Shown here: positions 51,910 to 61,594 of the stretch, piece after piece
Layout: the number at the start of each line of letters is the position of its first letter
How positions within the stretch are numbered: position 1 is the stretch's first letter
NCBI RefSeq assembly: GCF_000337195.1
Contig: NZ_AOID01000003.1
Span: forward strand, 1-64,000
DNA: 64,000 nucleotides
DNA from: Natrinema versiforme JCM 10478
GTDB lineage: Archaea > Halobacteriota > Halobacteria > Halobacteriales > Natrialbaceae
Reading direction: 5' to 3'
Made by a program: the position numbers and the translations under genes
The notes under the pieces: generated by a model
The model's database searches: none
What the model was told of the DNA's origin: nothing
The model's input: the letters and a program-made list of their open reading frames with translations, nothing else

Positions 51910-52143
51910 AAATCGACCCTCGGAGGGAACCGGCTTGAACGTGGCGAATCGAGCAGGAACGTCAGACAGCTCGAGCAATACCGGACTATCGGCCGTCTCG
52001 CCGAATCAGGTCTCTGAGTCCCATACCGTCGTAACTGACAGAACTGTACAGATACCGACGATAGTGTCGAAAGTAACGATAGTAACAATAGTTCGAATAC
52101 CTTCTCAGAAGTTGATAATACCCGTCCGGACGAACGGGTTGAT

Positions 52144-52780: not shown

Positions 52781-53647
52781 CTATCGCAGCTCGTCGGCCT
52801 CGTCCATGAGCTTGTGTCGGAACGCCCGGTAGGCGTTTTCGCCCCGTTCGGTCAGTTCGACGACGCGCCGGCGGCCGACCGACTCGATCGTCACGTAGCC
52901 GTCCTCGGAAAGCGGCTCGAGGACGTGGGTGTCGAGGACCCGAAACGCGCCCTTGTCCTCGCCGGAGCGGTCGTCTGGCGACCGTCGATCGGCCATGAAG
53001 GCGAGTTCCTGCTCTCGAGCGTACTCGATGAGGTCCTTCTTTTTCGGCGGTGCCGTCCGGTCGTCGTGAAAGCCGTCCCACGCGGCCGGATCGGCGAGAA
53101 ACTCCATGATGGCGACCTGCTCGCGCGTCGGCGACTCAATGGGGTAGGTCGGTACCTCCTCCATCTCGTCGAGGCCGAACGAGATGGGTTCGGTCGTCCC
53201 GTCGTGGGCGTACTCCGACGGCTCGACGTAGTAAGCGTGGGCGTCCGTCGAGACGTCCATGCACGCGATGGTCGCGCCGATCGCCGGAATCGTACCGGCC
53301 CCCGAAACGTTGACGTACACCTGATCCTCGGCGTGGATATCGGCGATCGTCGTCACGTCGCCGAGGACGGCGTACACGTCCGTCAGATCGCACGCTCTGG
53401 TCCGCACCTCGGGGACGATCGACTCGAGTTCCTCACGTAACTCGTCGTGATAGTCGGCGGCCGCGGTTGCGTTTCGCTCGCTGTGGCCGTCTCCCTCCTC
53501 AGCTCGTTTCCCGTCCGTCTCCCCACCGCCGGCGCTATCGTCCTCGAGCAGGTAGACCAGATCCGCCCGCTGGGTCCGGATCGGCTCAAGGATCCGATCG
53601 AACTCGTAGCCCAGCGGCACGACGTGCACTCGCCTGACGACCTCCAT
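52781..53647 (-). CDS. HFX_2341-type transcriptional regulator (DUF6293), CARF-like
   Basis: A 288-residue protein. The N-terminal 140 residues resemble a CARF Rossmann-type domain: VHVVPLGYEFDRILEPI at the start and VNVSGAGTIPAIGATIACMD, which is like the nucleotide-binding turn of Csa3-type regulators. A winged-helix region occupies the C-terminal third (PTREQVAIMEFLADP, KKDLIEYAREQELAF, HVLEPLSEDGYVTIESVGRRRVVELTERG). The family is a haloarchaeal regulator; the CARF assignment and any cyclic-oligonucleotide ligand are inferred. AGTTATTTTTGC is 27 nt upstream, so it is probably leaderless. No cas genes are nearby. Confidence 0.82.
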   Translation of the reverse strand: MEVVRRVHVVPLGYEFDRILEPIRTQRADLVYLLEDDSAGGGETDGKRAEEGDGHSERNATAAADYHDELREELESIVPEVRTRACDLTDVYAVLGDVTTIADIHAEDQVYVNVSGAGTIPAIGATIACMDVSTDAHAYYVEPSEYAHDGTTEPISFGLDEMEEVPTYPIESPTREQVAIMEFLADPAAWDGFHDDRTAPPKKKDLIEYAREQELAFMADRRSPDDRSGEDKGAFRVLDTHVLEPLSEDGYVTIESVGRRRVVELTERGENAYRAFRHKLMDEADELR

Positions 53648-57077: not shown

Positions 57078-57872
57078 TTAGGCCTCGAGCGCCAGTCCCG
57101 CTTCGGCCAGCGCCTCGTCGGTCGAGCGGTCGTCGTGGACGACGGCGGCGACCGCTCGTGCGATGGCCTCGGGGTCCTCGTGCTGGAAGATCGAGCGGCC
57201 CATGGAGATCCCGGCACCGCCGGCGTCCATCACGCCGCGGACCATGTCGATCGTCTCGCGGTCGGTGCCCCGCGAGCCGCCGGCGATGACGACCGGCAGC
57301 CGGGTCGACTCGACGACGTGCTGGAAGCTCTCGGAGTCGCCGCTGTAGCCGGTCTTGACGATGTCAGCGCCGAGTTCCTCGGCGAGTCGGACCGCGTGAC
57401 CGAGCGCTTCGGGGTCCGCGGAATCGACGCCGGGGCCGCGGGCGTAGGCCATCGCGAGCACCGGAATGCCAAAGCGCTTCGCCGTTTCGGTGACCTCCGA
57501 GAGCTGGCTGATCTGATCTGGTTCGTAGTCCGAGCCGACGTTGATGTGGAAGGAGACGGCGTCGGCACCCGCTCGGATCGCTTCCTCGACGGTGCCGGTC
57601 AGCCGCTTGTCCTGCTCGTCGGGGCCGATCGTGGTCGAGCCGTTGAGGTGGACGATGTAGCCCTTGCCGTTCTTGTTCTCGTGGACGCGGGGCGCGATCC
57701 CTTTCTGCGTGAGAACCGCGTCCGCACCGCCGGTGGTGACGCCGTCGATGGTCGATTCGATGTCTTTCAGTCCCTGGACGGCACCCATCGTGAGGCCGTG
57801 GTCCATGGGGACGATTACGAACGATCCGTCTGTCCCGATTCGCTCGAGTCGTGCGTCGATTCCTGTGGTCAT
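57078..57872 (-). CDS. aroA': 2-amino-3,7-dideoxy-threo-hept-6-ulosonate synthase (ADH synthase)
   Basis: A 264-residue DhnA-type class I aldolase that starts the archaeal alternative shikimate route from 6-deoxy-5-ketofructose 1-phosphate and aspartate semialdehyde. VIVPMDHGLTMG, FHINVGSDYE, DIVKTGYSGD (Schiff-base Lys) and AGGSRGTD are visible. It is 24 nt downstream of trpA in the same direction and is thus the last gene of the trp operon. DHQ synthase II, the next enzyme, is encoded at 50.7-51.9 kb. A fructose-bisphosphate aldolase role cannot be fully excluded. Confidence 0.88.
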   Translation of the reverse strand: MTTGIDARLERIGTDGSFVIVPMDHGLTMGAVQGLKDIESTIDGVTTGGADAVLTQKGIAPRVHENKNGKGYIVHLNGSTTIGPDEQDKRLTGTVEEAIRAGADAVSFHINVGSDYEPDQISQLSEVTETAKRFGIPVLAMAYARGPGVDSADPEALGHAVRLAEELGADIVKTGYSGDSESFQHVVESTRLPVVIAGGSRGTDRETIDMVRGVMDAGGAGISMGRSIFQHEDPEAIARAVAAVVHDDRSTDEALAEAGLALEA

Positions 57873-57896: not shown

Positions 57897-58802
57897 TTAT
57901 GGCTGTTCTGGTTCCGGTGTATCTTCGGGGTCGACCGTGATAGAGTCCGCGCCGCGGCGTGCGCCGCGCTTGAGTTCGCGGGCTTTGGCCTCGAGCGCGT
58001 CGACCGCGTCGCTGGGGTCGTCGCTCGAGGCGATGATGTCGACGAGCGCGCTGCCGACGATGACGCCGTCGGCACCCGCCTCGATGATTTCGGCCGCGTG
58101 GTCACCCTCGCTGACGCCGAAGCCGACTGCCTTGGGCACGTCGTACTCCGACAGCCGCGCGAGGCTGTCGTGGGTCGCACTCGAGACGTTCGCGCGCGCG
58201 CCGGTCGTCCCGAGGCGGGCCTGCACGTAGGCGAAGCCCGAGACGTGAGACATGATCGTATCGAGGCGCTCGCCCTCGGTCGTCGGCGCGATGATGAAGA
58301 CGAGATCGAGCCCGTGGTCGTCACAGGCCGCCCGCAGCGGCTCGGCCTCCTCGGCGGGGAGGTCGGGGACGATGATGCCTGAGAGGCCCGCCTCCGCGGC
58401 CCGTTCGACGAACGGACGAACATCGGGCTTGCTCTGCGGCTTCGCCGCATCGCTATCCGAGGCGCGTGGCGCCTCGCTGTCCCCGTACTGGAGGATCATA
58501 TTATAGTACGTCATCACCAGTAGCGGTGCCTCGGTCTCGAGGTCGTCGACCAACTCGAAGAAGCCCTCGGGGGTTGTCCCCGCCGCGAGCGCGCGGTTGA
58601 TCGCCGCCTGAATCGTCTGCCCCTCCGCGATCGGCTCCGAGAAGGGGAGCCCGAGTTCGATCAGGTCCGAGCCGCCGCGATCGAGGGCCTCGACATATTC
58701 CTTGGTGTCCTCGAGCGAGGGATCGCCCGCCGTGATGTAGGTGATCAGTGCGGGGTAGTCCTCGCGGATGGCGGCCTCGACGTCGCTGTCGTACTCGCTC
58801 AC
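57897..58802 (-). CDS. trpA: tryptophan synthase alpha chain
   Basis: A 301-residue subunit that releases indole from indole-3-glycerol phosphate. The catalytic Glu is in [19 protein letters not shown]; the Asp usually found in the ADG of the family's SDPLADG motif is Glu here (AEG). The core TIM-barrel sequences are intact ([30 protein letters not shown]). Near residue 103 the stretch [17 protein letters not shown] is an extra piece absent from the fold. The start overlaps the trpB stop by four bases. Confidence 0.93.
58442..58486 (-). repeat. In-frame palindrome-bearing insertion in trpA
   Basis: Two palindromes lie in tandem: TGCGGC-TTC-GCCGCA and GAGGCGC-GTG-GCGCCTC. Together they encode [14 protein letters not shown]. 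Neither the frame nor the conserved motifs are broken. Confidence 0.55.
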
Positions 58803-60115
58803 GAGTCGAACACCTCCACGTCAGGTGCGGCCTCGAGATCACGCTTCTCGGTCTCCTCGAGCACCGTTTCGAGGTCCTTGTCGCCGCGGCCGGAGACGTT
58901 GACGACGACGAGGTCGCCGAGTCGGTCGTGTTCTTCCTCGAGATAGCCCAGCGCGTGACTCGACTCCAGCGCCGGGATGATCCCCTCGAGTCGTGAGAGC
59001 CGGTGGAAGCCGTTGAGCGCGTCGTCGTCGTCGACGCTCGCGGGCGTGACTCGCCCGGTCTCGACGAGATGCGAGAGTTCGGGGCCGACCCCGGCGTAGT
59101 CCAGTCCCGCGCTGACGCTGTGGGACTCCATGATCTGGCCGTCGGTGCTCTGGAGGAGCTTCGTCATCGCGCCGTGGAGGACGCCGTCGGTGCCCGTCGA
59201 GAGCGTCGCGGAGTTGGGTGCGAGACCCTCTTCCTCGTCGATCTCGAGGCTCGAGCCGCCGGCTTCGACGGCGTAGAGGTCGACGTGCTCTCGCGGCTCG
59301 TCGCCGCTCGAGCCGTCCGCGAACCGTGGGTTCGCGCAGTCGGGGACGAACGCGTGGAAGGTCCCCATCGTGTTCGAGCCGCCGCCGGCGCAGGCGACGA
59401 CGCTATCGGGCAGTCGGCCGGCCTTCTCTTGAATCTGGTCGCGGATCTCGTCACCGATGACCGCCTGAAAGTCCCGGACCATCTGCGGGAAGGGGTGTGG
59501 ACCGACGACGGAGCCGATGACGTAGTGGGTCCGCTCGACCGTCGTCGCCCAGTCGCGCATCGTCTCGTTGATCGCCTCCTTGAGGGTGGCGCTGCCGGCC
59601 TCGACCGGATTCACCTCGGCCCCGTTCATCCGCATCCGGTAGACGTTCGGCCGCTGGCGGTTGACGTCGGTTCGGCCCATGTAGATCTCGCAGGGCATGT
59701 CCAGGTGGGCCGCGGCCATGGCCGTTGCGGTGCCGTGTTGGCCCGCACCGGTCTCGGCGATGATCCGCTCTTTGCCCATATACTTCGCGAGCAGGACCTG
59801 TCCGAGTGCATTATTCAGCTTGTGGGCCCCGCCGTGGAGCAAGTCTTCGCGCTTGAGATAGACCTCGCGGTCGTAGCGCTCGCTTAGTCGATCCGCGCGC
59901 TGGAGCGGCGTCGGCCGCCCGCCGAAATCGCGCATCCGCTCGCGGAACTCGTCCATGAAGCCGTCCTCGTTTTCCAGGACGTAGCGTTCGTAGGCGTCCT
60001 CGAGTTCCTGTAGCGCCGGCATCAGGGCCTCGGGGACGTATTGGCCGCCGTAGTCGCCGAACGTGCCCGCCCGGTCGGATCGGCTCTCGTCGTCTCGTTC
60101 GCGTTCCGTGCTCAT
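58799..60115 (-). CDS. trpB: tryptophan synthase beta chain
   Basis: A 438-residue PLP enzyme that joins indole and serine to tryptophan. The PLP lysine is in [15 protein letters not shown], the phosphate loop is [17 protein letters not shown], and the C-terminal serine-binding AILALE-type region is seen as [13 protein letters not shown]. The N-terminal [19 protein letters not shown] is standard. An extra stretch [16 protein letters not shown] in the middle contains palindromes. The gene is 25 nt downstream of trpC. Confidence 0.95.
59290..59337 (-). repeat. In-frame palindrome-bearing insertion in trpB
   Basis: CGGCTCG and CGAGCCG (7-bp arms) and then CGCGAACC-GTG-GGTTCGCG (8-bp arms, 3-nt loop) occur next to each other. 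They encode the piece [15 protein letters not shown], which the TrpB core does not need. Confidence 0.55.
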
Positions 60116-60140: not shown

Positions 60141-60932
60141 TCATGTCTGATCCGTCTCCGCCGATTCCGCCCGCGTGAGTCGCCGCGTGTTCTCTGTCAC
60201 GTCGCTGTCGCCCGCGCCGTGGTCCATGATGGCGCTGCCGACCAGCAGGGCGTCGGCACCCGCCGCGCGCATCCGTCGAACGTCCGCCGGCGACGACACG
60301 CCACTCTCGGCGATCAGCGTTACGTCGTCCGGCACCTCGGGCGCGACCGACTCGAAGGTTTCGAGGTCCACCTCGAGTCGCCCCAGATCGCGGTTGTTCA
60401 CGCCGATGATGTCGGCCCCCGCCTCGAGCGCGGTCTCGAGTTCCACCCGGTCGTGGACCTCCACGAGGGGTTGAAAGCCGCGCTCGCGGGCGGCCGTGAC
60501 GAGCGCCTCGAGGTCGTCGACGAACCTGGTGATCAGCAAGAAGAGGTCCGCTTCGACGACGTCCATTCCCGCCTCGTCGAGGACGAAGTCCTTGCGTAAG
60601 ACGGGGACGTCGACGGCCTCGCGGATGCGGGTCAGCGCCTCGGGCGAGCCGCCGAAGTGGGTCGGTTCCGTGAGGACCGAAATCGCCGCCGCGCCGCCCG
60701 CGACCATCGCCTCGGCGAGTTCGACGGGATCGTCCTCTCGAGCGCCGTCGGCCGTCGGACTCGTCGGTTTCACCTCCGCGATCACTGGGACTCGCCCGTC
60801 GGCCTCGGCGGCGGCCAGCGCGTCGGGCAGCGAGCGCGCGTCGACGTCGACGACGCCTTCCCCGCCCGACCGCTCCCGTGCCGCCTCGAGTATCGACCGC
60901 ACCGCGGGAGCGAGCTCCGTATCGGAGTTCAT
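60141..60932 (-). CDS. trpC: indole-3-glycerol-phosphate synthase
   Basis: A 263-residue TIM-barrel enzyme. [15 protein letters not shown] (catalytic Lys), [25 protein letters not shown] (catalytic Lys), [36 protein letters not shown] and [14 protein letters not shown] are all present. It is the first gene of the trpC-trpB-trpA-aroA' operon. Transcription is expected to be leaderless, from a TATA-like TTATGTA about 26 nt before the ATG that lies inside an array of GTAC cores. Confidence 0.95.
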
Positions 60933-60935
60933 TAT

Positions 60936-60961
60936 TGTACATCGACGTACTCATATGTACA
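60936..60961 (-). promoter_or_regulatory. trp operon operator: three GTAC cores 10 bp apart
   Basis: GTAC occurs at 60937, 60947 and 60957, exactly 10 bp apart, the outer two as TGTACAT and ATGTACA in inverted orientation. The array covers positions 4 to 29 nt before the trpC ATG, i.e. TATA box and transcription start. TGTACA is the TRP-box core recognised by TrpY in methanogens. Protein binding here would block initiation. Confidence 0.65.
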
Positions 60962-61123
60962 TAAGGCTTGCGTCATCCTCAGCCGATAGCGCACGCTGGG
61001 ACGCGACGAGCGAGGCGAGGCCGACCGGACCGAGACTCGACACCCAGTACTCGAGTCCGGGGGAAGACCACCTCGAGAGCGAGGACCGGCGGCTATTCAA
61101 GCACGGATCGCCTACGGACGGCT

Positions 61124-61594
61124 ATGGAGGACGTTACGGACGCTGGAATCTACGCACGGCAATCGTCGTATCTCGACCGGTACGTCCAGCTCGGAGCCGC
61201 CAGCGGGCGGGTCCTGAGCGTCTCGTTTCCCGAGATCCCCGACGACGACGCCGAGGACGACCACGACGTGCTCGATCAGCTATTCGAGTACCTCGACGGG
61301 CTCGAGCCGGTCACCTTCGACGACGTCACGGTCGCGATGACCATGCCCACCGATCAGCGGGCAGTCCTCGAGGGAGTCCGAGACATTCCCTACGGCGATC
61401 AGGTGACCGTCGAGACGCTCGCCCGGATGACCTCGGGGCTCGATCACGAGGACGAAGACGACATCATCCTCGTCCGGACCGCGCTCGCCGAGAATCCGGC
61501 CCCGATCCTCATTCCGGACCACCGCGTGCGCGACGGCCCGAGCGCCGCGCCGCCGGATGTCGAGCAGAAGTTGCGCTCGCTCGAGGGATTGTAA
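61124..61594 (+). CDS. MGMT-family DNA-binding-domain protein without the catalytic Cys (ATL-like)
   Basis: A 156-residue protein. The second half follows the MGMT C-domain: VRDIPYGDQVTVETLARMTSGL and the helix-turn-helix, then ILIPDHRVRDGPSAAPP. In active methyltransferases the motif is PCHRV; here it is PDHRV, so alkyl transfer is not expected. ATL proteins bind alkylated guanines and mark them for repair. The first 60 residues form a short N-domain (VLSVSFPEIPDDD). The gene starts divergently from the trp operon. Confidence 0.8.
   Translation: MEDVTDAGIYARQSSYLDRYVQLGAASGRVLSVSFPEIPDDDAEDDHDVLDQLFEYLDGLEPVTFDDVTVAMTMPTDQRAVLEGVRDIPYGDQVTVETLARMTSGLDHEDEDDIILVRTALAENPAPILIPDHRVRDGPSAAPPDVEQKLRSLEGL

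Follow-up and report, generated by a model that had tools for sequence, protein, structure and literature searches.

Helically phased GNNC units over the promoters of both tryptophan operons suggest a putative trp operator common to haloarchaea

What controls tryptophan synthesis in haloarchaea? Two studies saw a joint response of the trp genes and neither found the factor behind it: in Hbt. salinarum trpCBA-OE1472F and trpD1FE1G1 were both induced in the absence of aromatic amino acids (PMC4162585), and in Har. hispanica both trp operons responded together, with no TrmB sites nearby and no factor found by the authors (PMC10817205). The question is raised anew by the trpC promoter of Natrinema versiforme JCM 10478, in which three GTAC cores follow one another at exact 10-bp steps. 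The window analyzed here is a stretch of 64,000 nucleotides on one contig (C3) of the 4.19-Mb genome, which is assembled in 72 contigs. From this window and from comparisons among haloarchaea we derive a likely site and describe precisely how it is laid out at both trp operons, and we name one candidate protein that is found in every genome tested.

The operon lies on the minus strand and its genes were assigned as follows:

60141..60932, minus strand: trpC, indole-3-glycerol phosphate synthase, the first gene of the operon (PF00218, 1.7e-69, 234 bits)
58799..60115, minus strand: trpB, tryptophan synthase beta (PF00291 (PALP) and conserved gene order)
57897..58802, minus strand: trpA, tryptophan synthase alpha (PF00290, 4.3e-83)
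57078..57872, minus strand: aroA'-type aldolase, step one of the archaeal aromatic pathway, the last gene of the operon (PF01791)

The aroA'-type aldolase gene was present in 75 of 80 haloarchaeal trpC loci, and its Hbt. salinarum ortholog, OE1472F, is reported to be in an operon with trpCBA (PMC4162585). No regulator gene conserved beside trpC was found in the same 80 loci, and the position divergent from trpC, which trpY occupies in the TRP-box system, is held here by an MGMT-like ORF. This ORF (61126-61594, plus strand) was kept in place in 54/80 loci; it looks MGMT/alkyltransferase-like by eye, with IPDHRV replacing the catalytic PCHRV, and a Pfam search with it gave no match, even at E 0.5.

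The elements upstream of trpC are listed below:

60933..60974, minus strand: whole conserved footprint, -42 to -1, with BRE, TATA, three putative operator units and the predicted start site
60967..60972, minus strand: BRE-like CGCAAG, compared with the haloarchaeal consensus CGAAA (PMC4983044)
60961..60965, minus strand: TATA element CTTAT, -33 to -29, which fits the haloarchaeal consensus TTWT (PMC4983044)
60957..60960, minus strand: putative operator unit 1, GTAC, in the context TTATGTACAT, -28 to -25 from trpC, abutting the TATA element
60947..60950, minus strand: putative operator unit 2, GTAC, -18 to -15 from trpC
60937..60940, minus strand: putative operator unit 3, GTAC, -8 to -5 from trpC, adjoining the predicted transcription start
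60936..60950, minus strand: 15-bp element GTACGTCGATGTACA, with a degenerate form GTNCRTYRRTGTNCA common to the trpD promoter (GTACATTGGTGTCCA)

Counted from the trpC start (60932, minus strand), the three cores begin at -28, -18 and -8 and lie in the stretch between the TATA element and the start codon. Because of the position of the TATA element, transcription probably starts at most a few bases from the ATG, and the trpC transcript would be leaderless or nearly so. The first-pass annotation had described the three cores with their 10-bp spacing and the inverted pair of outer flanks, TGTACAT/ATGTACA, just as they were found (units 1 and 3 contain the exact TGTACA), and its placement of the array over the promoter of trpC-trpB-trpA-aroA' was borne out by the Pfam matches together with the position of the TATA element and the start.

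GTAC by itself was commoner in the window than expected (196 occurrences against 148 in dinucleotide shuffles), hence single cores carry little weight and the case for the array rests on its spacing and on its conservation, the latter being decisive. With regard to spacing, the window holds four copies of GTACN6GTAC where 0.27 are expected, and the trpC array accounts for two of these; GTACN6GTACN6GTAC occurred once in the whole genome, at the trpC array itself, and not at all in the backwards-read control. No further full array of the trpC type was found across the genome.

Conservation was assessed for the upstream regions of 79 of the 80 named haloarchaeal loci (L048 was omitted, as its start codon is uncertain), with the window's own family defined as Natrinema/Haloterrigena (the best relatives) plus related Natrialba-type genera. 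The pattern GNNC was present at -28, -18 and -8 of trpC in 78/79, 78/79 and 79/79 genomes, so that a helically phased array over the core promoter, as put forward by the first-pass annotation, is conserved in related genera. Outside the window's family the counts were 28/28, 27/28 and 28/28 for all genomes and 16/16, 15/16 and 16/16 with one genome per genus, and in these 16 genera nearly every other offset from -40 to -1 had no GNNC at all, whereas the inner bases of the cores varied at several positions. The strict threefold GTAC was found in 49/51 genomes of the window's family and in 0/28 elsewhere; as a description of the class, a strict TGTACA/GTAC core is too narrow, because the class-wide constant is a GNNC at each 10-bp step. 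For the window's family, the 42 bp that precede trpC and the start codon itself were close to GRCGCAAGCCTTATGTACATATGAGTACGTCGATGTACAATAATG, and the DNA upstream of this block was random (0.13 bits per position). Over all 79 genomes the mean information was ~1.3 bits per position between -50 and -1 versus ~0.1 between -150 and -61, with an abrupt rise at about -42. A fixed G and C with freer inner bases looks like the trace of protein contacts, and the strict 10-bp step would place the half-sites on one face of the DNA.

GNNC units were also observed at the second trp operon, trpDFEG, which extends the first-pass annotation and which was located in this genome via the anthranilate synthase domain. 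The trpD promoter was conserved over ~65 bp in the window's family and was conserved class-wide as well. At offsets 0/10/30/40 the GNNC frequencies were 1.00/1.00/0.98/0.88 in 49 genomes of the window's family and 1.00/0.98/0.75/0.65 in 40 genomes of other families, where offset 0 equals 1.00 by construction (the alignment was anchored on the first core) and the other three do not; besides these four offsets GNNC was near zero. Read from these alignments, the trpD promoter carries two GNNC-N6-GNNC dyads, three helical turns (30 bp) apart, throughout the class. Both dyads lie downstream of the TATA element, the second one possibly within a short 5' leader, and the last dyad, GTACATTGGTGTYCA, forms one motif with the last two trpC units, GTACGTYGATGTACA (GTGCGTTAGTGTACA in Haloferax). 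Between the dyads of the trpD promoter (L115:8182-8250) a block CATTACAAGACAACTA was kept in the window's family, with the form CATtacAAcnCgaA class-wide, and this block may contain the start site or another site.

A genome scan with GTNCRTYRRTGTNCA, allowing 0-1 mismatch, returned 63 places (four of them exact), with trpC and trpD scoring highest. A third target was sought among the inspected candidates (the first 30 and part of the rest) and none stood at a plausible promoter, trpC and trpD being the only inspected strong matches that directly precede a plausible gene start; for this reason the regulon looks narrow.

The resemblance to TRP boxes that was noted in the first-pass annotation pointed to a TrpY-like gene, and a search of the genome recovered one. 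It encodes P0004, a protein of 167 aa (G000:C45:22788-23288; L297:6789-7292), which was found, at 81% identity, with a query for the archaeal 'ACT-domain regulator of amino acid metabolism', its own sequence serving for all further comparisons; an ACT-domain search also gave a weak match to this gene. Against the NCBIfam model NF053754 (TrpY_fam) P0004 scored 241.7 bits over the full length (1-163/163, E 3.8e-72), above the curated cut-off of 180, which makes it a member of the family. Exactly one TrpY_fam gene was present in each of 79/79 haloarchaeal genomes (41 genera), and among 14 control genomes matches occurred only in Haloferax volcanii, Methanosarcina acetivorans and Lactococcus lactis, two of them above the cut-off. 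Residues 88-167 of P0004 correspond to an ACT fold (Z 10-11); HTH-like helices were predicted in the N-terminal half, for which the fold matches were mostly HTH proteins but weak (Z ≤ 6.1), and the N-terminal HTH region, including R55/R56, was near-invariant among haloarchaea. A sequence search of PDB chains with P0004 gave no match. The gene lies on another contig than trpC, unlinked to the trp genes; around it (L297:5122-8533, contig C45) hisB was near in 17/29 loci by a motif test, and the gene often precedes a YigZ/IMPACT-like gene. No phased array was found in the promoters of the trpY family, and a single GTAC was present in many of those from the window's family.

In Methanothermobacter thermautotrophicus the gene of TrpY (MtTrpY) is divergent from its trp operon and autoregulates, and the TRP box, since the work of Xie and Reeve in 2005, is said to have the consensus TGTACA. 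MtTrpY is a tryptophan-dependent repressor of trp that binds TRP boxes (PMC6737238). The haloarchaeal case resembles this system in the TGTACA-type boxes over a trp core promoter (trpEGCFBAD in the methanogen), in the TrpY-family protein in the genome and in the target, tryptophan biosynthesis. It differs in having two split operons, strict 10-bp phasing and half-sites that show TGTACA in the window and are relaxed to GNNC in other families, as well as in a regulator gene that is unlinked, shows no clear operator at its own promoter, and is placed in a separate TrpY branch (PMC6737238, the one paper in the literature searched that names both TrpY and Haloferax).

We read the conserved units at trpC and trpD as a putative trp operator covering the core promoter, and a class-wide operator of this kind has apparently not been described in the literature searched. 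It is probable that the trpC cores are the operator of a haloarchaeal trp regulon, with a TrpY-family protein as the most likely regulator co-repressing both operons. Evenly poised is the fuller proposal that a class-wide GNNC operator, laid out in exact helical turns, is read by an unlinked, universally single-copy TrpY-family co-repressor of the two split trp operons. This would be a TRP-box switch in dispersed form which has kept the phasing of half-sites more strictly than their inner sequence. What the sequences show is GNNC units at a fixed spacing, kept class-wide at both operons and placed over the promoter, and a TrpY-family gene everywhere tested; from these we infer binding, the identity of the regulator, its ligand and the sign of control. 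A half-site would be G-N-N-C (GTAC in the window's family), one every 10 bp, and two adjacent half-sites would form a 14-bp dyad, GNNC-N6-GNNC. Three half-sites would extend from the 3' edge of TATA to the start site at trpCBA-aroA', and two dyads, 30 bp apart, would lie 3' of the TATA element at trpDFEG. If a dimeric regulator occupied these sites, it would get in the way of TBP/TFB and RNA polymerase, which makes co-repression the simplest mechanism: with plentiful tryptophan (or another aromatic amino acid), sensed by the TrpY-family protein (predicted N-terminal helix-turn-helix, C-terminal ACT) through its ACT domain, both operons would be shut down together. If this is true, TrpY control, which is known to operate in a single methanogen, would extend to a whole archaeal class with good genetics, and haloarchaeal work could gain a new promoter that responds to tryptophan.

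TrpY is the leading hypothesis for the regulator because a TrpY_fam gene is present in this genome and once in each of the 79 haloarchaea. Several points speak against it. The trpY-family gene is unlinked to trp and its own promoter has no array, unlike MtTrpY; the haloarchaeal homologs were reported in a separate, unstudied branch, and in Thermococcus kodakarensis trp is not under the control of the TrpY homolog (PMC6737238). In Hbt. salinarum the regulator gene reported to rise strongly when aromatic amino acids are absent is LrpA2 (PMC4162585). Against tight control, PMC13147458 (2026) describes the trpCBA promoter of Hfx. volcanii as 'not tightly regulated', with reference to Large et al. 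2007. Moreover, universal presence cannot separate trpY from other universal regulators.

Lrp dimers recognize dyads of ~15 bp, and phased arrays over promoters are often bound by them. The main rival, although we consider it unlikely, is an operator whose binding protein is of the Lrp/AsnC (feast/famine) type, for example LrpA2. The archaeal Lrp/AsnC proteins of Hbt. salinarum (LrpA1/LrpA2) share with the present case sites across TATA and start, a separation of ~20 bp and amino-acid control, and this genome holds ten AsnC-type matches. LrpA2 (OE2776F), which responds to aromatic amino acids, was induced 14.9-fold without them and was proposed as a regulator (PMC4162585), but this rise may be an effect instead of a cause. 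The repeats proposed for LrpA1 at its own promoter, -31/-25 and -12/-6, have a geometry like that of units 1 and 3 (PMC2894021), whereas the published FFRP motifs of Hbt. are A/T-rich with CG and are not GTAC/GNNC (PMC4236453). Furthermore, 0/10 AsnC_trans_reg loci of this genome had the motif in their own promoter, where an autoregulated gene would carry it.

Less likely still is binding by another family, e.g., the TrmB-type HAH_0923 or an unrecognized wHTH protein, possibly as an activator. HAH_0923 tracks the expression of the trp operons and was suggested by the authors of that study (PMC10817205), and 35 TrmB-domain matches were counted in this genome, but no convincing operator was found in the TrmB promoters scanned. 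As for activation, Tar (TK0271) of T. kodakarensis, a MarR-like activator, uses a palindromic site at aromatic amino-acid operons, TGGACA-N8-TGTCCA, which resembles the half-sites here; its spacing is different, however, and its sites lie upstream of BRE/TATA (PMC6737238), whereas the trpC and trpD units are found on TATA and 3' of it, the region in which archaeal repressors act.

That the block is simply an unusually conserved core promoter (BRE, TATA, -10 and start site) with no specific regulator is very improbable. The BRE CGCAAG and the TATA TTWT do belong to the conserved block, and the loose regulation of the Hfx. trpCBA promoter mentioned in PMC13147458 would agree with it, but none of the known core elements includes the 10-bp GNNC pattern, which is found again at trpD with other distances to TATA and the start codon, and a control promoter, that of the trpY-family gene, was far less conserved at similar depth (0.67/0.15 bits vs. 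1.56/1.16 at trpC). A chance array is refuted for practical purposes: GTAC is over-represented in the window, but the triple is unique in the genome and, as judged from the alignments, the trpC array is not chance because its pattern is conserved across 79 haloarchaeal genomes.

With TrpY-type control of a narrow regulon as the preferred reading, two minor features of the window can be added. The TGTACA at 52045-52050, which had been listed in the first-pass annotation as a further occurrence, was rejected as an extra site, being at chance level (3 in the window vs. 1.8 expected); it lies ~136 bp from the probable aroB' ATG (~51909), and the Hbt. ortholog OE1475F had no response to aromatic amino acids (PMC4162585). 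At 52781-53647 on the minus strand, in the interval from the DHQ synthase II gene to the trp operon, there is a gene for a predicted regulator of the HFX_2341/DUF6293 family, which has a winged helix at its C-terminus.
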